Source of the DNA: Acidobacteriaceae bacterium
GTDB lineage: Bacteria; Acidobacteriota; Terriglobia; Terriglobales; Acidobacteriaceae
Assembly (NCBI GenBank): GCA_027307045.1
Contig: DAHUXR010000011.1
Span: 1-63,458 of the forward strand
Length of the DNA: 63,458 nt
Direction: 5' to 3'
The position numbers and the translations under genes are program-made. The notes below the pieces were generated by a model, which saw only the letters and a list, made by a program, of their open reading frames with translations, had not been told where the DNA came from and did no database searches. Every line of letters begins with the position of its first letter. Position 1 is the stretch's first letter. Below, piece by piece: positions 103-4,728 of the stretch.

Positions 103-132
103 TTGACAGTTTGTAGTGAGGCTGGTTAGGAT
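103..132 (+). promoter_or_regulatory. sigma70-like promoter of the gas vesicle operon
   Basis: A perfect -35 box TTGACA at 103-108 is followed after 18 bases by TAGGAT at 127-132, four of six matches to the -10 consensus. It lies about 70 bases before the first gas vesicle gene and points at it. The rest of bases 1-199 shows no convincing gene. This suggests gvpJ is the first gene of the transcript, although the window edge hides what lies further upstream. Confidence 0.6.
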
Positions 133-199: not shown

Positions 200-520
200 A
201 TGCAAAGAGTTCCTACGGTTTCCGGAACAGCAAACCTGCTGGACATCCTTGATCGAGTACTCGATAAAGGACTTGTGATTGCGGGTGACATCCGCGTTTC
301 GCTTGCGAACGTGGAGTTGCTCACGATCCGTATCCGCTTGCTTGTTTGTTCCGTCGATAAAGCTGAGGCCATAGGTCTCAATTGGTGGAAGTACGACCCA
401 AATCTCACGGCTCCTGTGCCTGAGAACGTTGTGCGGAGGACCCAGTTACCCGGTGCGCCACCGGCGTCCCAGACGCCGAACCGGAAGAGGCCCGCTGTCC
501 GCGCAAAAAGAGTGAAGTGA
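200..520 (+). CDS. gvpJ: gas vesicle protein GvpJ (GvpA family minor shell protein)
   Basis: This 106-residue protein belongs to the gas vesicle GvpA/GvpJ/GvpM fold family. It has the GvpJ hallmarks rather than those of the main shell protein: [20 protein letters not shown], then [17 protein letters not shown] around residues 52-68, where GvpA has VIDAW and ETYLKYAEAVG-type motifs. GvpJ proteins are minor components thought to help nucleate or cap the growing vesicle. The last 40 residues are a proline- and arginine-rich basic tail without obvious domain. The ATG at 200 has only a weak ribosome binding site. gvpA follows 31 bases later on the same strand. Confidence 0.88.
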
Positions 521-551: not shown

Positions 552-842
552 ATGGCCGTTGAAAGAGTTTCCGGCGGATCAAGTTTAATCGATGTTCTGG
601 ATCGAGTACTCGACAAAGGTATCGTCATTGATGCCTGGGTCCGCATTTCGCTGGTCGGCATTGACTTGATCACGGTAGAAGCCCGCGTCGTCGTTGCGTC
701 CATTGATACCTACCTCAAGTACGCTGACGCTGTGGGTCTCACGGGTCTGGTTTCCCGTCCCACGTTGACTGAAGGCGGCGCTGAAGGCGAAGAAGGAGAT
801 CTGGGTGAAGTCAGGCCTCGTACACCCCGCCGGCGGCGGTAA
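552..842 (+). CDS. gvpA: gas vesicle major structural protein GvpA
   Basis: The first 70 residues match the main gas vesicle shell protein almost word for word: [40 protein letters not shown] and [11 protein letters not shown]. GvpA polymerises into the ribs that form the hollow, gas-permeable protein shell used for buoyancy. The protein is 96 residues, longer than the usual 70 or so, because of an acidic then arginine-rich tail (from about residue 72) ending in RTPRRRR; this tail is unusual for GvpA. A clear GGAG ribosome binding site precedes the ATG. The next gene, a histidine kinase, starts only 21 bases after the stop. Confidence 0.95.
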
Positions 843-863: not shown

Positions 864-2981
864 ATGGCTACGGCCGAAATCCGGATGCAACCGGCGCGCA
901 TGAATGGACGGCGTACAGCCCAGCCTCGCCGTCCTGCCGTTCTTCGTCTGTTGCAGGCGGAACGCTCGGAAGAAATCTTCCCGCTCTTGCTGGAAGAGAT
1001 CATCGCCCTCGGCAATCCGCGCGCGCTTGTTGTTGACGTGAATCTTGACAGCGGTGAAATCACGCCGGCTGCCGCGCTGAAATGGCCTCGCGCGCAGATG
1101 GAAAAGTTTACCAGCGCGCTCTGGATGCAGGACCATCCTCTTACCAGCGTGCTCCACGCGGTGCGGCCTGAGGTGCTGGAAAAAAGCAACCTGCACACCC
1201 GCCCCATTTACGTCCATCCCATCCTTTATTCCAACCGCAATCTTTGCTGGGAAGCGGACCGCATTCGCACCTCAAGCTGTCTGGCGGTGCAGAATTCGCG
1301 CGGGGAAAAACGCGTCCGCCTGGAAGACCAGGTTTGTTCCACCTGTGAGATGCGCGCCTATGCCGCGGTTGTGGTGGTGGAACTGCCCAAGAACCACTCT
1401 GCCCAGGTCATTGCCGAGCTAGGCGAGCTGATTGACCTGGCTAATCGCTATCTTTCGCGCCTGTTCAAGGTTGAGCACTATTACAACCGCATGCGTGATA
1501 TGGAAATCACCATCGCGCAAATGGGCACCGTAATGCAGAGCATGGCTGACCCGGTCATTCTCACTGACACGCAGCATCGCGTGATCATGCAGAACAAGGC
1601 AGCCGAGCGCTTTTTCCGCGTGCCGGAAGAAATGACGGAAGGTTTGGTGCGCGCGGTTGAGTTCAATAATCTGCTTTTCTCCGCGGCCCTCTCTTCCATG
1701 CTGGTTTCCGGCAGCGATTCTCATCGTGACCTCACGCTGGTGGACGCTATTGAAGGCGAAGAAATGCTGTTTGAGGCCGTCTCCGCGCCCACTTTCGGCC
1801 CGGACGGCATTCAGCTTGGCACCGTAACCGTGATGCGTGACGTGACCGATCTCCGTCGCGCCGATCAGGAACTGCGGCTGAATTACGAGCGGCTCAGCGA
1901 GGCCGAAGAAGTTGTCCGGCAGGACCGTGACCGCCTGAACCTGATCATTGAAAACGTCGGCGACCCCATTGTGGTCTGCGACGGCAAAGCCAAGATCGTG
2001 CTGGTGGACCCTCTGGCCCAGGAGTTGTTCGGCACGGAGATGGACGTGGTGCGGGACACCGTCCAGTTCCAGAATCAGACCAAGCTCACGGCCTTTATTG
2101 ACGCCTTTACGTCTTCTTTCGCCGATCGCGAAACCGCACCGTTGCGTTTGTACAATCCCACGCTGCGGCAGGATATCGATTACGACGCCCGCTCCGGCAA
2201 GATCTATGGTGAGCGTGGCCAGGTTGCATATACCGTCACGGTCCTGCGCGATCTCACGGCCTTGCGCAAAGTGGAGCAGCTCAAGGTGGAGCGGCGCATG
2301 CTGGAGATTGAAAAGTTCGCCGCCACGGGCCGGCTGGCCGCCACCATCGCCCATGAGGTCAATAACCCCATGGAGGCCATCAAGAACGCGATCTACCTTT
2401 TGGCCAGCGCCATTCCGGAGAATGCCGCGCCCGTTTACAACATTTTAAAGTCAGAAACTGAGCGCGTTGCGCGCATTGTGCGCCAGATGCTTGGGCTTTA
2501 CAGGAATACGGAACAGGTAAAGCCGGTCAACGTCAACACCATCATCGAAGATACGCTGCTGCTGCTGAACCGCCAGCTCCAGCGCGCCAATGTTGAAGTC
2601 CAGACGCAGTTGGACGTGCTTCCGGACGCCGTGATCGCCGCCGACCAGATTCGCCAGGTGCTATCCAACCTGGTCATTAACGCCCGTGACGCCATGCCGA
2701 ATGGAGGCAAGCTGCGCATACGCAGCCGCCATATTCCCGGCTACGACGACCTGCACGGCTGGGTGCGCATCTTAATCGCTGATACCGGCTCGGGAATTCC
2801 CCCGGAAATGATTCGCACCATCTTTGAGCCGTTTGTTACCACCAAGGGCGAACGCGGCACCGGGCTGGGCCTCTGGATAGTAAAAGGAATCATCCAGAAC
2901 CATGCGGGCAAGCTTTCCGTCAAGAGCCGTTTGGGACGCGGCACGACTTTCAAGATTGATTTGCCAGTCGTAAAATTGTGA
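864..2981 (+). CDS. soluble PAS-domain sensor histidine kinase inside the gas vesicle operon
   Basis: This 705-residue cytoplasmic protein has no membrane segment. Residues 25-175 form a GAF-like input region with four cysteines (C128, C139, C158, C161, the last two in a CSTC motif), which could bind metal or sense redox state. Two PAS domains follow (about 215-330 and 350-465), then a HisKA dimerisation domain with the phospho-accepting H497 in IAHEVNNPMEAI, and an HATPase_c domain with N (NLVINARDAM), G1 (ADTGSGIP) and G2 (GTGLGLWIVKG) boxes. The start has GGGGA upstream. Its stop overlaps the GTG start of the receiver gene, so the two are probably translationally coupled. Kinase identity is certain; its role in vesicle control is inferred from position. 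Confidence 0.93.
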   Translation: MATAEIRMQPARMNGRRTAQPRRPAVLRLLQAERSEEIFPLLLEEIIALGNPRALVVDVNLDSGEITPAAALKWPRAQMEKFTSALWMQDHPLTSVLHAVRPEVLEKSNLHTRPIYVHPILYSNRNLCWEADRIRTSSCLAVQNSRGEKRVRLEDQVCSTCEMRAYAAVVVVELPKNHSAQVIAELGELIDLANRYLSRLFKVEHYYNRMRDMEITIAQMGTVMQSMADPVILTDTQHRVIMQNKAAERFFRVPEEMTEGLVRAVEFNNLLFSAALSSMLVSGSDSHRDLTLVDAIEGEEMLFEAVSAPTFGPDGIQLGTVTVMRDVTDLRRADQELRLNYERLSEAEEVVRQDRDRLNLIIENVGDPIVVCDGKAKIVLVDPLAQELFGTEMDVVRDTVQFQNQTKLTAFIDAFTSSFADRETAPLRLYNPTLRQDIDYDARSGKIYGERGQVAYTVTVLRDLTALRKVEQLKVERRMLEIEKFAATGRLAATIAHEVNNPMEAIKNAIYLLASAIPENAAPVYNILKSETERVARIVRQMLGLYRNTEQVKPVNVNTIIEDTLLLLNRQLQRANVEVQTQLDVLPDAVIAADQIRQVLSNLVINARDAMPNGGKLRIRSRHIPGYDDLHGWVRILIADTGSGIPPEMIRTIFEPFVTTKGERGTGLGLWIVKGIIQNHAGKLSVKSRLGRGTTFKIDLPVVKL

Positions 2982-3418
2982 GTGCCGATCAAAAATACCG
3001 CGTGCTGGTGGTGGACGATGAAGCGGCCGTCCTGCTTACCTACCGTCTTATTCTTGAACGGCAGGGCTATGAAGTTGTTGCGTGCGGCACCTCCAAGGCC
3101 GCGATTGAGGCCATGGGGAAGCAGCAGTTTGATGTGGTTCTGTGCGATTATTCACTGGAAGAGCAACATACAGGGTTTGAAGTAATCTCTGCGGCAAGAA
3201 AAATTAACTCCACCATTCCCGCGGCCCTGCTTACAGGGTATGCCACCAAGGAAACCGCGGATGAAGCAGCCAGCCGTGGCATTGGCGTAATGTTCAAGCC
3301 GATTGAGATTGAAGAATTTTTGGCGACAACCTCCAACATGTTGAGGAGAGACAATGAGTCCAAGCAAGAAGGCAGGCAAGAAGACAACCGCGGTCCGCAA
3401 GGCAACCATCAAGGCTGA
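2978..3418 (+). CDS. single-domain response regulator (CheY-like receiver)
   Basis: The protein is 146 residues and is a receiver domain only: acidic pair D13/D14, phospho-acceptor D57 in VVLCDYSLEE, T86 in LLTGYAT and K107 in MFKPIE. There is no DNA-binding or enzymatic output domain, so it must signal by protein contact or pass phosphate on. Translation starts at a GTG that overlaps the kinase stop codon, making the kinase its obvious partner. The last 20 residues are rich in Q, E, G and N and are encoded by DNA that also encodes, in another frame, the start of GvpF/L. This tail is outside the receiver fold and may simply reflect the overlap. Confidence 0.9.
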   Translation: MSADQKYRVLVVDDEAAVLLTYRLILERQGYEVVACGTSKAAIEAMGKQQFDVVLCDYSLEEQHTGFEVISAARKINSTIPAALLTGYATKETADEAASRGIGVMFKPIEIEEFLATTSNMLRRDNESKQEGRQEDNRGPQGNHQG

Positions 3419-4253
3419 ACCGGCGACGGCGGTACTGGATCTTGTGCCTCCGCCGGCGAGCCTGAAGATGGAGCCGCGAAGCGGACAGCAGCAGGAAGGC
3501 CGCTACGTTTATGGCGTGATTGAATCGCGCGCCCCTGTCGGCTTTGGCCGCAGCAGCATCGGCGGCGTGAATGAGGACGTGTACACGGTCCATTACGGCG
3601 ATATCGCAGCCGTCGTCAGCCGCACGCCCGTTTTCATCTTTGACCCGACGCGTGACAACGCGCTGGCCCATGAGCACGTCATCGAATCGGTGATGAAGAA
3701 TTACACCATCATCCCCATGAGCTTTGGCACGGTGTTCCGCACGGACGACGATATCCGCGAAGTGCTGAAAAGCATTTATTCGTCGCTGAAAGACGTTCTC
3801 AAGCAGATGACCGGCAAGCTTGAGTTCGGCCTGAAAGTCACCTGGGACCGCGACCGCATCATTGAAGAGCTGCAGCGCGAGCATGATGAGATCCACCGCT
3901 TCCACCAGGAACTGACGCGCAAGCACCTGCAATCCACGTACTTCGCGCGCATGCAACTGGGCCGCATGATTGACAAGGCCCTGGCCGAACTGGCCGCGAA
4001 CTACGTCCGTGAAATTTATGACGGACTGCGGGCCGTCTGCGTGGCCTCGCGTGACAACAAGCCCATCGGCGACAAGATGATCATGAACGCGGCGTTTCTC
4101 ATCCAGAAAGCCCGTGAAGCCGAGTTCGACGCAGCCGTAAACAAGGTCGCCCAGAAATTTGGCGACCGCCTGAATTTCAAATATACCGGCCCGTGGCCGC
4201 CTTACAACTTTGTGAATATCCGCCTGAAATTGGAGCGCGGCGGACAGGGATAA
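3354..4253 (+). CDS. gas vesicle protein GvpF/GvpL family
   Basis: Residues 49-295 match the GvpF/GvpL family, whose members are assembly proteins that bind GvpA and are needed for vesicle formation. Recognisable parts are GRYVYGVIES at the domain start, HEHVIESVMKNYTIIPMSFG, the VTWDRDRI and HDEIHRFHQE helical region, and the family's closing KYTGPWPPYNFVNI. A 48-residue lysine- and alanine-rich extension precedes the domain. The ATG at 3354 has a strong GAGGAGAG ribosome binding site located inside the receiver gene, which it overlaps by 65 bases. I cannot say from sequence alone whether it is better named GvpF or GvpL; only one copy is in the window. Confidence 0.93.
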   Translation: MSPSKKAGKKTTAVRKATIKAEPATAVLDLVPPPASLKMEPRSGQQQEGRYVYGVIESRAPVGFGRSSIGGVNEDVYTVHYGDIAAVVSRTPVFIFDPTRDNALAHEHVIESVMKNYTIIPMSFGTVFRTDDDIREVLKSIYSSLKDVLKQMTGKLEFGLKVTWDRDRIIEELQREHDEIHRFHQELTRKHLQSTYFARMQLGRMIDKALAELAANYVREIYDGLRAVCVASRDNKPIGDKMIMNAAFLIQKAREAEFDAAVNKVAQKFGDRLNFKYTGPWPPYNFVNIRLKLERGGQG

Positions 4254-4386: not shown

Positions 4387-4728
4387 ATGCTCTTAATTGA
4401 CGATCTGCTCTTCGCGCCCTTTTCCGGCTGGAACTTCATCATGCGTACCCTGCTGAAGGTGGCCGAAGAGCAGTGGACTGACGATGCGCCGCTCAAAGAG
4501 CAACTCCTTCACCTGCAAGTCGAGTTGGAAGAAGGCTCCATCACTGAAGAGCAATATCTGGAAGCGGAAGCGGCCATCCTGCGCGAAATCCGCGAGGTGC
4601 AGCGCCGCAAGATCGAGCTTGCCGGCGGCGATCCTGACCAGTTTGAAGGCGGCATCTCCGGCTCCGCCGTCCAGGAAGGCTCTGGCGCGTCCATTACCTG
4701 GGACCCGAACGAAAGCAACGAAGAGTAG
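4387..4728 (+). CDS. gvpG: gas vesicle protein GvpG
   Basis: The 113-residue protein matches the GvpG family: an N-terminal hydrophobic start (MLLIDDLLFAPFSGWNFIMR) followed by a charged amphipathic helix pair containing LKEQLLHLQVELEEGSITEEQY, close to the family pattern in which a leucine-rich helix precedes an acidic GxISEEEF-type turn. GvpG is a small accessory protein needed for vesicle assembly. The glycine-, serine- and glutamate-rich last 30 residues are not part of the conserved region. It is separated from gvpF/L by 133 bases holding an inverted repeat. It is the last gas vesicle gene here; gvpN, gvpK and others are not in the window. Confidence 0.85.
   Translation: MLLIDDLLFAPFSGWNFIMRTLLKVAEEQWTDDAPLKEQLLHLQVELEEGSITEEQYLEAEAAILREIREVQRRKIELAGGDPDQFEGGISGSAVQEGSGASITWDPNESNEE

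Follow-up and report, generated by a model that had tools for sequence, protein, structure and literature searches.

Gene content of the locus

The window (i.e., the whole stretch of 63,458 nucleotides that was analyzed, from an Acidobacteriaceae bacterium) begins at the first base of its contig and carries gas vesicle genes on one strand between positions 200 and 4728, in the order gvpA1-gvpA2-kinase-receiver-gvpF/L-gvpG. Open reading frame calls and a Pfam scan of the window confirmed the gene positions given in an earlier note on this DNA. The features are as follows.

103..132, + strand: promoter-like TTGACA-N18-TAGGAT between gvpK and gvpA1 (core conservation)
200..520, + strand: gvpA1, GvpA/J-type shell protein, 106 aa (PF00741, 63.3 bits)
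552..842, + strand: gvpA2 (GvpA), 96 aa (PF00741, 62.5 bits; NF006874, 114.6 bits, cutoff 100)
864..2981, + strand: gas vesicle locus histidine kinase, PAS-PAS-HisKA-HATPase, 705 aa
921..1508, + strand: GAF-like sensor domain of the kinase (model; no Pfam/NCBIfam family)
1245..1346, + strand: insert in the GAF-like fold, with the codons of the four invariant cysteines (residues 128, 139, 158, and 161)
1500..2273, + strand: PAS-PAS module common to gvp-adjacent kinases
2978..3418, + strand: single-domain receiver, 146 aa, its C-terminal tail overlapping gvpF/L_a (PF00072, 66 bits)
3354..4253, + strand: gvpF/L_a (GvpL/GvpF; PF06386, 256.4 bits; matches the solved gas vesicle proteins 4qsg and 6l5d)
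4387..4728, + strand: gvpG (PF05120, 51 bits)

The tight spacing described in the earlier note was borne out (gvpA2-kinase gap, 21 bases; kinase/receiver overlap, 4 bases; receiver/gvpF overlap, 65 bases), with a looser spacing of 133 bases from gvpF to gvpG. Between gvpA2 and gvpG, the window holds no genes beyond the kinase, the receiver, and gvpF/L_a. The upstream half of the cluster (arsA, gvpF/L_c, gvpJ, gvpF/L_b, and gvpK) lies on another contig of the same genome, C93. The end of C93 and the start of the window have 5 bases in common, and the gene order across the two is that of genome G005, where both halves occur in one piece. GvpA, GvpF/L, GvpG, and GvpK, by which a gas vesicle cluster is recognized, are all encoded.

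One good promoter had been proposed at positions 103 to 132. A promoter call by consensus alone was rejected, given that the scan found 2 matches to TTGACA-N18-TAGGAT versus 2.1 expected (i.e., chance level). The proposal fared better on conservation: the core GGTTGACAG and TA(N)3TGCG were invariant in all six aligned members of the genus, while the flanks diverged. This conserved element before gvpA1 looks sigma-70-like.

Domain organization of the kinase and the receiver

The kinase contains HisKA and HATPase_c domains with H, N, and G boxes (invariant H497, E498, N501, N602/N606, D640, G642, G665, and G667). For its sensor domain, we found no family in Pfam/NCBIfam and no PDB sequence match; the Pfam GAF family (PF01590) was unmatched, and the sole match (14 bits) was to an unrelated family. 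A predicted structure of the sensor (pLDDT, 89.9) had 11 Foldseek matches at E values up to 0.001, mostly GAF-named (3eea, 5w10, 3trc, and 2vks). The kinase N terminus is modelled on this basis as a GAF fold, and we grade the likeness as moderate because TMq was only about 0.5 (best E value, 4e-5). Fold searches with the whole kinase return mainly the kinase core. At an E value of 1e-6, the sensor domain was detected in 3 of 396 genomes of the phylum, always within this kinase.

The four sensor cysteines were invariant in two alignments (30/30 and 20/20 rows). They would hold a metal or an Fe-S cluster or react mutually, and because of this the kinase would read the intracellular redox state, oxygen, or a metal; we judge the two steps, taken jointly, to be rather probable. 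When these bacteria build vesicles, and for what purpose, become testable questions with a candidate redox- or metal-sensing kinase embedded in the cluster.

The PAS-PAS stretch matched nine other kinases encoded beside gvp genes at 136 to 177 bits, versus 40.3 bits for the next kinase searched. Of the nine, seven belong to additional acidobacterial families, one is from Pyrinomonadaceae, and one is from a Chloroflexota bin. A PAS-PAS profile run over 70 genomes gave eight matches, all at gvp loci, seven of which were rows of the profile itself. The module was found in 0 of 40 genomes without PF00741 and was absent from 22 of the 30 other PF00741 genomes searched. The sensor and the kinase core vary between families. 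By these searches, the kinase family appears to occur almost only beside gas vesicle genes.

Regarding the receiver, the Pfam scan found nothing besides PF00072 in the window protein and no output domain. The 29 aligned receivers (excluding profile matches under 150 bits and the broken gene of genome G002) carry just short tails, in agreement with the earlier statement that the receiver has no DNA-binding domain. The phospho-Asp, Thr, and Lys residues were invariant in all 29. As judged from these residues, the receiver is a phosphorylation-competent, single-domain protein. The kinase would very probably phosphorylate this adjoining receiver, and we strongly expect the receiver to act via contact with another protein, because it has no output domain.

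Conservation across the family and phylum

Among 300 genomes of the family, 46 had both the kinase (E value of at most 1e-90) and PF00741 (GvpA/J), 6 had the kinase only, 7 had PF00741 only, and 241 had neither (Fisher p, 6e-40, a nominal value because the genomes are related). The order gvpA2 to kinase occurred in 30 of the 37 loci read; the receiver came next after the kinase in 24 of these 30, and gvpF/L_a followed the receiver in 23 of those 24. The pair thus has gvpA2 on one side and gvpF/L_a on the other at 23 of the 37 loci, including the window. One clade (6 of the 30 gvpA2-kinase loci) has no receiver between the kinase and gvpF/L_a, and the family also has another kind of gvp cluster, found in 7 of 53 genomes, that is without the kinase. 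The co-occurrence and the recurrent gene order across relatives support the view that the kinase-receiver pair is a conserved part of the gas vesicle locus. The earlier note had named a single insertion as the outcome that would refute its proposal; we rejected this because the arrangement recurs across the family and phylum. The gvp-embedded arrangement is old.

That an unrelated two-component pair is merely carried in the cluster is highly improbable: the clade lacking the receiver and the unlike sensors and kinase cores of different families would fit such hitchhiking, but the position is constant across families, as is the possession of the PAS-PAS module.

A scan of genome contigs with two short generic kinase patterns, which is not a census, returned at least 80 loci. 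Among the matches listed, the first three (L157 to L159) had a cluster with this kinase, and L229 had gvpK-gvpA with other kinases further off.

Reduced loci in genomes without vesicle genes

Five genomes without PF00741 or GvpK retain gvpF/L_b, the kinase, and the receiver side by side. These reduced loci were found via the kinase, so its retention in them is by construction. The other eight cluster genes are absent from the five genomes, apart from an arsA remnant of 28 residues beside gvpF/L_b in G319. At an E value of 0.01, no remnants of gvpA, gvpG, or gvpJ were detected in reduced loci L057, L058, L059, and L137; weak matches away from the trio (gvpK, E value of 0.004, in L058; arsA, E value of 0.001, in L137) were regarded as noise. 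The kinase tree requires at least three independent reductions to the trio. The reverse order, with the trio older than the cluster, is disfavored because full clusters hold the trio noncontiguously, sister lineages have full clusters, and G319 keeps its arsA remnant.

According to simple Nei-Gojobori pairs, which are rough because dS was often near or above 1, dN/dS between two vesicle-less genomes was 0.07 for the core, 0.13 for the sensor, 0.21 for the receiver (76 codons), and 0.29 for gvpF/L_b, compared with 0.03 to 0.08 (core) and 0.05 to 0.09 (sensor) in most vesicle-bearing pairs and with 0.18 (core) and 0.38 (sensor) between G319 and its genus mate G525, which retains gvpA2. Since the ratios exceed those of most vesicle-bearing pairs, constraint is weakened in vesicle-less genomes. 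The reduced kinase of G008 consists of the core only, that of G319 (483 aa) has lost most of its PAS part, and the reading frame of the G002 receiver is broken. On such gene structures, the kinases of reduced loci are eroding. The gvpF/L_b gene is fast evolving, and all three vesicle-less members of the genus have lost the W of its GPWP motif.

The trio as an obligate unit was weakened by six genomes of one genus with gvpF/L_b and neither kinase nor receiver nearby and by G447, which keeps the kinase and receiver and has no gvpF/L_b.

Of 37 family genomes, 34 carried a further, solitary GvpF/L gene, and these 34 included vesicle-less ones. At 14 of the 30 such loci read, a receiver protein was encoded downstream of it in the same orientation, and in part of the family an NtrC-type regulator adjoins the solitary gene.

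The trio might have an independent role in the cell and merely be hosted by the vesicle locus, with vesicles perhaps as one client. The five genomes that retain just these genes, the dN/dS values under 0.3 for one pair of these genomes, and the solitary GvpF/L genes with their downstream receivers are consistent with this. We consider it improbable, however, given that the kinase is absent from 241 of 247 family genomes without PF00741, that no PF00741-less genome searched had the PAS-PAS module, and that erosion is seen in the reduced kinases and in one receiver. The vesicle-less genomes with the trio represent a natural experiment on GvpF/L function.

Candidate output of the receiver

The Gvr regulators of Serratia comprise NtrC-type and receiver-type proteins. 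Like the locus here, the gas vesicle cluster of Serratia sp. ATCC 39006 contains regulators (GvrA, GvrB, and GvrC) together with gvpF genes, and in Serratia low oxygen raises vesicle gene expression, according to the available text of two reports (PMC4982088, PMC11778176). As described there, the Gvr proteins are encoded in a second, gvrA-led operon and control gvpA1 transcription, and sigma-54 is required, vesicles being lost in an rpoN mutant (PMC4982088, PMC11778176). The available text of one report further states that GvrA-C are required for full gvpA1 expression and that similar operons occur across Proteobacteria (PMC4982088). The earlier remark that known operons use factors such as GvpE/GvpD was thus incomplete, since Serratia GvrA-C are also cluster encoded (PMC4982088). 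By description, the locus here is set apart from that of Serratia: here gvpA and gvpF/L flank a kinase and a bare receiver, with a sigma-70-like element ahead of them, and in the 23 loci counted above the pair sits within gvpA2-gvpF/L_a rather than in a separate gvrA-led operon.

It is possible that the receiver, with the same sensor and kinase, is a relay or a brake through which phosphate or contact reaches a DNA-binding regulator encoded elsewhere, the output being gvpA1 transcription. Single-domain receivers often work in relays, and the Serratia dependence of gvpA1 transcription on GvrA-C, its response to low oxygen, the rpoN phenotype, and the NtrC-type regulator beside some solitary GvpF/L genes all point in this direction. 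The sigma-70-like appearance of the element before gvpA1 and the lack of any additional gene between gvpA2 and gvpG in the window argue against it.

The reading that we prefer, plausible though short of probable, is that the kinase and receiver form a dedicated two-component system of the gas vesicle locus whose receiver has a GvpF/L-type protein as its partner. The vesicle-less genomes, by keeping the trio, point to a protein of the GvpF/L type, specifically to gvpF/L_b (on contig C93) and not to gvpF/L_a, with which the receiver overlaps. We would thus, weakly, place a GvpF/L-type assembly protein as the likeliest partner, with gvpF/L_b first; the six genomes that keep gvpF/L_b alone count against it. 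Through such contact, phosphorylation could quite conceivably tune vesicle building; control of assembly by protein contact had been suggested in the earlier note. A bare receiver as the sole output would, if true, mean that assembly of an organelle is controlled without a transcription factor and would provide a handle to switch engineered vesicles serving as ultrasound reporters. A broader and rather doubtful extension is that GvpF/L proteins are both assembly factors and two-component partners: the four-cysteine GAF kinase, the receiver, and gvpF/L_b would switch vesicle building by contact and keep functioning after vesicle loss, and the solitary GvpF/L genes beside NtrC-type or receiver-kinase genes would be a second example.

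Other known gas vesicle loci

Bacteriophytochrome-type light sensors are kinases. One lies near gas vesicle genes in Bradyrhizobium ORS278, in a single acquired island whose description, in the available text, mentions neither a bare receiver nor a conserved position (PMC3899966). The haloarchaeal GvpE/GvpD pair likewise represents vesicle control encoded in the cluster; these two are described in the available text as a transcriptional activator and repressor (PMC9501494), whereas the window proteins match kinase and receiver families. Kinase and receiver models were matched, and no GvpE or GvpD model was among the best 25 matches per window protein.

The cluster of Acidobacteria bacterium Ellin345 includes arsA, two L/F, J, K, and M genes (PMC2963123), and its description seems to be without a two-component pair because the word "kinase" is absent from the available text (PMC2963123). 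Within the available text of the open-access literature, we found no acidobacterial gvp cluster described as containing a kinase-receiver pair. Cluster-encoded vesicle regulators are already known (Serratia GvrA-C), and the kinase family here is a new variant.

Gene order and a probable promoter

The window (contig C22) belongs to a genome assembly of 4.99 Mb in 356 contigs (93.7% complete). Gene calls agreed with the earlier note in placing a histidine kinase (705 aa; PAS-PAS-HisKA-HATPase) and a receiver (146 aa) between gvpA and gvpF/L on one strand, as follows.

103-132: TTGACA/TAGGAT pair (consensus scan)
200-520, + strand: gvpA1
552-842, + strand: gvpA2
864-2981, + strand: kinase
2978-3418, + strand: receiver
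3354-4253, + strand: gvpF/L_a
4387-4728, + strand: gvpG
after gvpG, opposite strand: CoA-transferase

A second contig of the same genome, C93, contains arsA, gvpF/L_c, gvpJ, gvpF/L_b, and gvpK. Its end and the window start share 5 bases, and one related genome (G005) carries both halves in one piece and in the same order. The full cluster is therefore arsA-F/L_c-J-F/L_b-K-A1-A2-kinase-receiver-F/L_a-G (gvpN was outside the genes searched).

The good promoter previously proposed at 103-132 is at chance level as a consensus match (2 matches found versus 2.1 expected). However, GGTTGACAG and TA(N)3TGCG were invariant in an alignment of six genus members while the flanks drifted, making a promoter between gvpK and gvpA1 likely.

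Conservation of the locus within the Acidobacteriaceae

Among 300 family genomes, 52 encoded a close relative of the kinase (E ≤1e-90), 53 had a match to PF00741 (the GvpA/J family), and 46 had both (Fisher p = 6e-40, a nominal value because the genomes are related; the cross-table assumes the same 300 genomes in both searches). PF00741 also takes in gvpJ, which is the sole match in some genomes (e.g., G505). In the seven genomes that had PF00741 but lacked the kinase, the cluster was of a second, different type, as read in three loci (L087, L088, and L242) and judged from match spacing in four.

We read 37 kinase loci from 37 genomes with profiles for the cluster genes. The kinase followed gvpA2 in 30, gvpF/L_b in 5, and gvpK in 1 (G505); the last was a fragment (G546). 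In the 30 gvpA2-kinase loci, the next gene was the receiver (24 loci) or gvpF/L_a (6 loci), the latter six forming one clade in the kinase tree; L157, L281, L282, and L279 (cut off upstream) matched one or the other form. The arrangement of gvpA with an adjacent kinase and receiver was found in 24 of the 37 family loci. In four of the six receiver-less loci (L045, L049, L152, and L155), a receiver gene lay downstream of gvpG on the opposite strand. One cluster (L141, in G447) was decaying, with a gvpA1 fragment, gvpA2, kinase, receiver, gvpF/L_c, and a short arsA remnant; the rest were not found at this locus.

Conservation beyond the family

Of 23 PF00741 genomes from other acidobacterial families, eight (G051, G052, G205, G371, G378, G401, G415, and G426) had a kinase directly downstream of gvpA, and G347 had kinase-receiver-gvpF/L_a with no adjoining gvpA. 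The receiver lay between kinase and gvpF/L_a in G051, G347, G371, G401, and G415, with space behind it for at most about 95 codons. In G205 and in two bins, L158 (Pyrinomonadaceae) and L159 (Chloroflexota), the gene after the kinase encoded a receiver-kinase hybrid.

These gvp-adjacent kinases differed at the N-terminal sensor (a Pfam GAF domain in L095 versus a four-cysteine domain in the window's family) and in the core (HEVNNP or SHEFRTP type). The PAS-PAS stretch of the window matched nine gvp-adjacent kinases at 136 to 177 bits, against 40.3 for the best of the remaining kinases in the loci searched; the exceptions were G052, whose shortened PAS part scored 30.9 bits, and the fragment in G426, which gave no match. 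Judged by sequence similarity, the middle of the gvp-adjacent kinases is one family. A PAS-PAS profile matched 8 of 70 genomes, once each and always at the gvp locus (8/30 with PF00741 versus 0/40 without), seven of the eight being rows of the profile itself.

The trio in vesicle-less genomes

Five genomes (G002, G007, and G008 of the window genus, G448, and G319) had no PF00741 or GvpK match genome-wide, and the stretches read, which were found via the kinase, retained gvpF/L_b, kinase, and receiver. The other eight cluster genes were absent from these stretches except for an arsA remnant in G319 (L138:10199-10282; 28 residues, 75% identity) adjoining gvpF/L_b. In G007, the trio has the same two neighbors as the C93 cluster, an endonuclease-like and a YfiH-like ORF, and the YfiH-like one is also present in G002 and G008. 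The reduced loci of these three genomes thus appear to occupy the old cluster site, best shown for G007, with one shared neighbor in G002 and G008. The kinase tree required four changes of vesicle-gene state, three forced by supported branches.

Between G007 and G002, dN/dS was 0.07 (kinase core), 0.13 (sensor), 0.21 (receiver), and 0.29 (gvpF/L_b); vesicle-bearing pairs gave 0.03 to 0.08 (core) and 0.05 to 0.09 (sensor). The comparison of G319 with G525, a member of its genus that retains gvpA2, gave 0.18 (core) and 0.38 (sensor). These ratios indicate that constraint on the trio persists in vesicle-less genomes but is weakened. The G008 kinase is core only, most of the PAS part is gone in G319, and the W of the gvpF/L_b GPWP motif is gone in the three vesicle-less genus members. 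The G002 receiver frame is broken: the gene at L058:5995-6376 runs across two frames, through either a genuine break or a mistake in the assembly.

An independent profile search of 300 genomes (E ≤1e-40) found gvpF/L_b in 53, of which 47 also carried the kinase and 6, all of genus g277, did not. The g277 stretches that were read (one a 6.3-kb contig) showed neither kinase nor receiver, nor anything else of the cluster besides gvpF/L_b; two of the six genomes (G554 and G589) carry the second cluster type at another site. The lone gene lies at L273:7351-8184, beside what is presumably a polynucleotide-phosphorylase-like ORF, and also in L274 to L278. Five kinase genomes lacked gvpF/L_b (G447, G529, G546, G576, and G594, with a full reading for G447 alone).

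Sensor, receiver, and possible targets

Sensor residues about 20 to 215 matched no Pfam family (one unrelated 14-bit match), no NCBIfam model above noise, and no PDB sequence. Cysteines 128, 139, 158, and 161 were invariant in 30 of 30 kinases, including those of vesicle-less G007, G002, and G448, and were seen in G319 by reading. An AlphaFold model (pLDDT, 89.9; pTM, 0.87) retrieved mostly GAF domains at the top of a Foldseek search (best E, 4e-5; TMq, about 0.5), with all four cysteines in one insert (A4 positions 109-142) between two strands (96-102 and 148-154). At E 1e-6, the domain occurred in 3 of 396 phylum genomes, each time as part of this kinase.

Alignment of 29 receivers showed invariant phospho-Asp, Thr, and Lys residues, an acidic pair kept as D/E-D, and nothing but tails behind the domain, bearing out the absence of an output domain; the window's tail overlaps gvpF/L_a in a different frame.

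The cysteine GAF-like domain would sense a signal inside the cell, probably redox state or a metal, and pass it through the PAS pair to kinase activity and so to the phosphate level of a receiver acting only by contact. Tentatively, the receiver's target is GvpF/L; haloarchaeal GvpF and GvpL are described as hubs of vesicle assembly (PMC9501494). A separate transcription regulator is a possible, if somewhat doubtful, target: in Serratia, the proposed route from low oxygen to the vesicle genes runs via the cluster-encoded GvrA-C, and sigma-54 is needed (PMC4982088, PMC11778176). Both targets are plausible on these precedents. Regulators inside gvp clusters are therefore already known, those of Serratia being GvrA-C, whereas here they are a kinase and a bare receiver. 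The portions of the open-access literature searched showed no family of kinases dedicated to gvp loci and placed, together with a bare receiver, between the genes for the shell and those for assembly.

Solitary GvpF/L genes and weak GvpA-like proteins

All nine genomes tested, vesicle-less ones included, also had a solitary GvpF/L gene at a distance from the gvp cluster (e.g., L237:6847-7572, L238:6756-7526, and L239:6765-7592). Its close relatives (E ≤1e-40) were present in 34 of 37 genomes of the family and in none of 24 other genomes. Within 1.5-kb flanks of 30 of these 34 loci, 14 had a receiver-bearing protein downstream on the same strand (10 sigma-54 NtrC-type and 4 receiver-kinase); additionally, L259 had a PhoB-like protein further off. 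Upstream of the gene in L237, and likewise in L244 and L245, is an ORF with a HisKA domain and no ATPase (L237:6388-6633; 82 aa; 26.0 bits versus a Pfam cutoff of 26.9). Weak GvpA-like proteins (32 and 26 bits) lie off-cluster at L004:1417-1734 and L004:2046-2666 and at L005:1333-1680; by eye, the first in L004 has a receiver-like ORF upstream on the same strand. Other genus members had weak matches of a similar kind.
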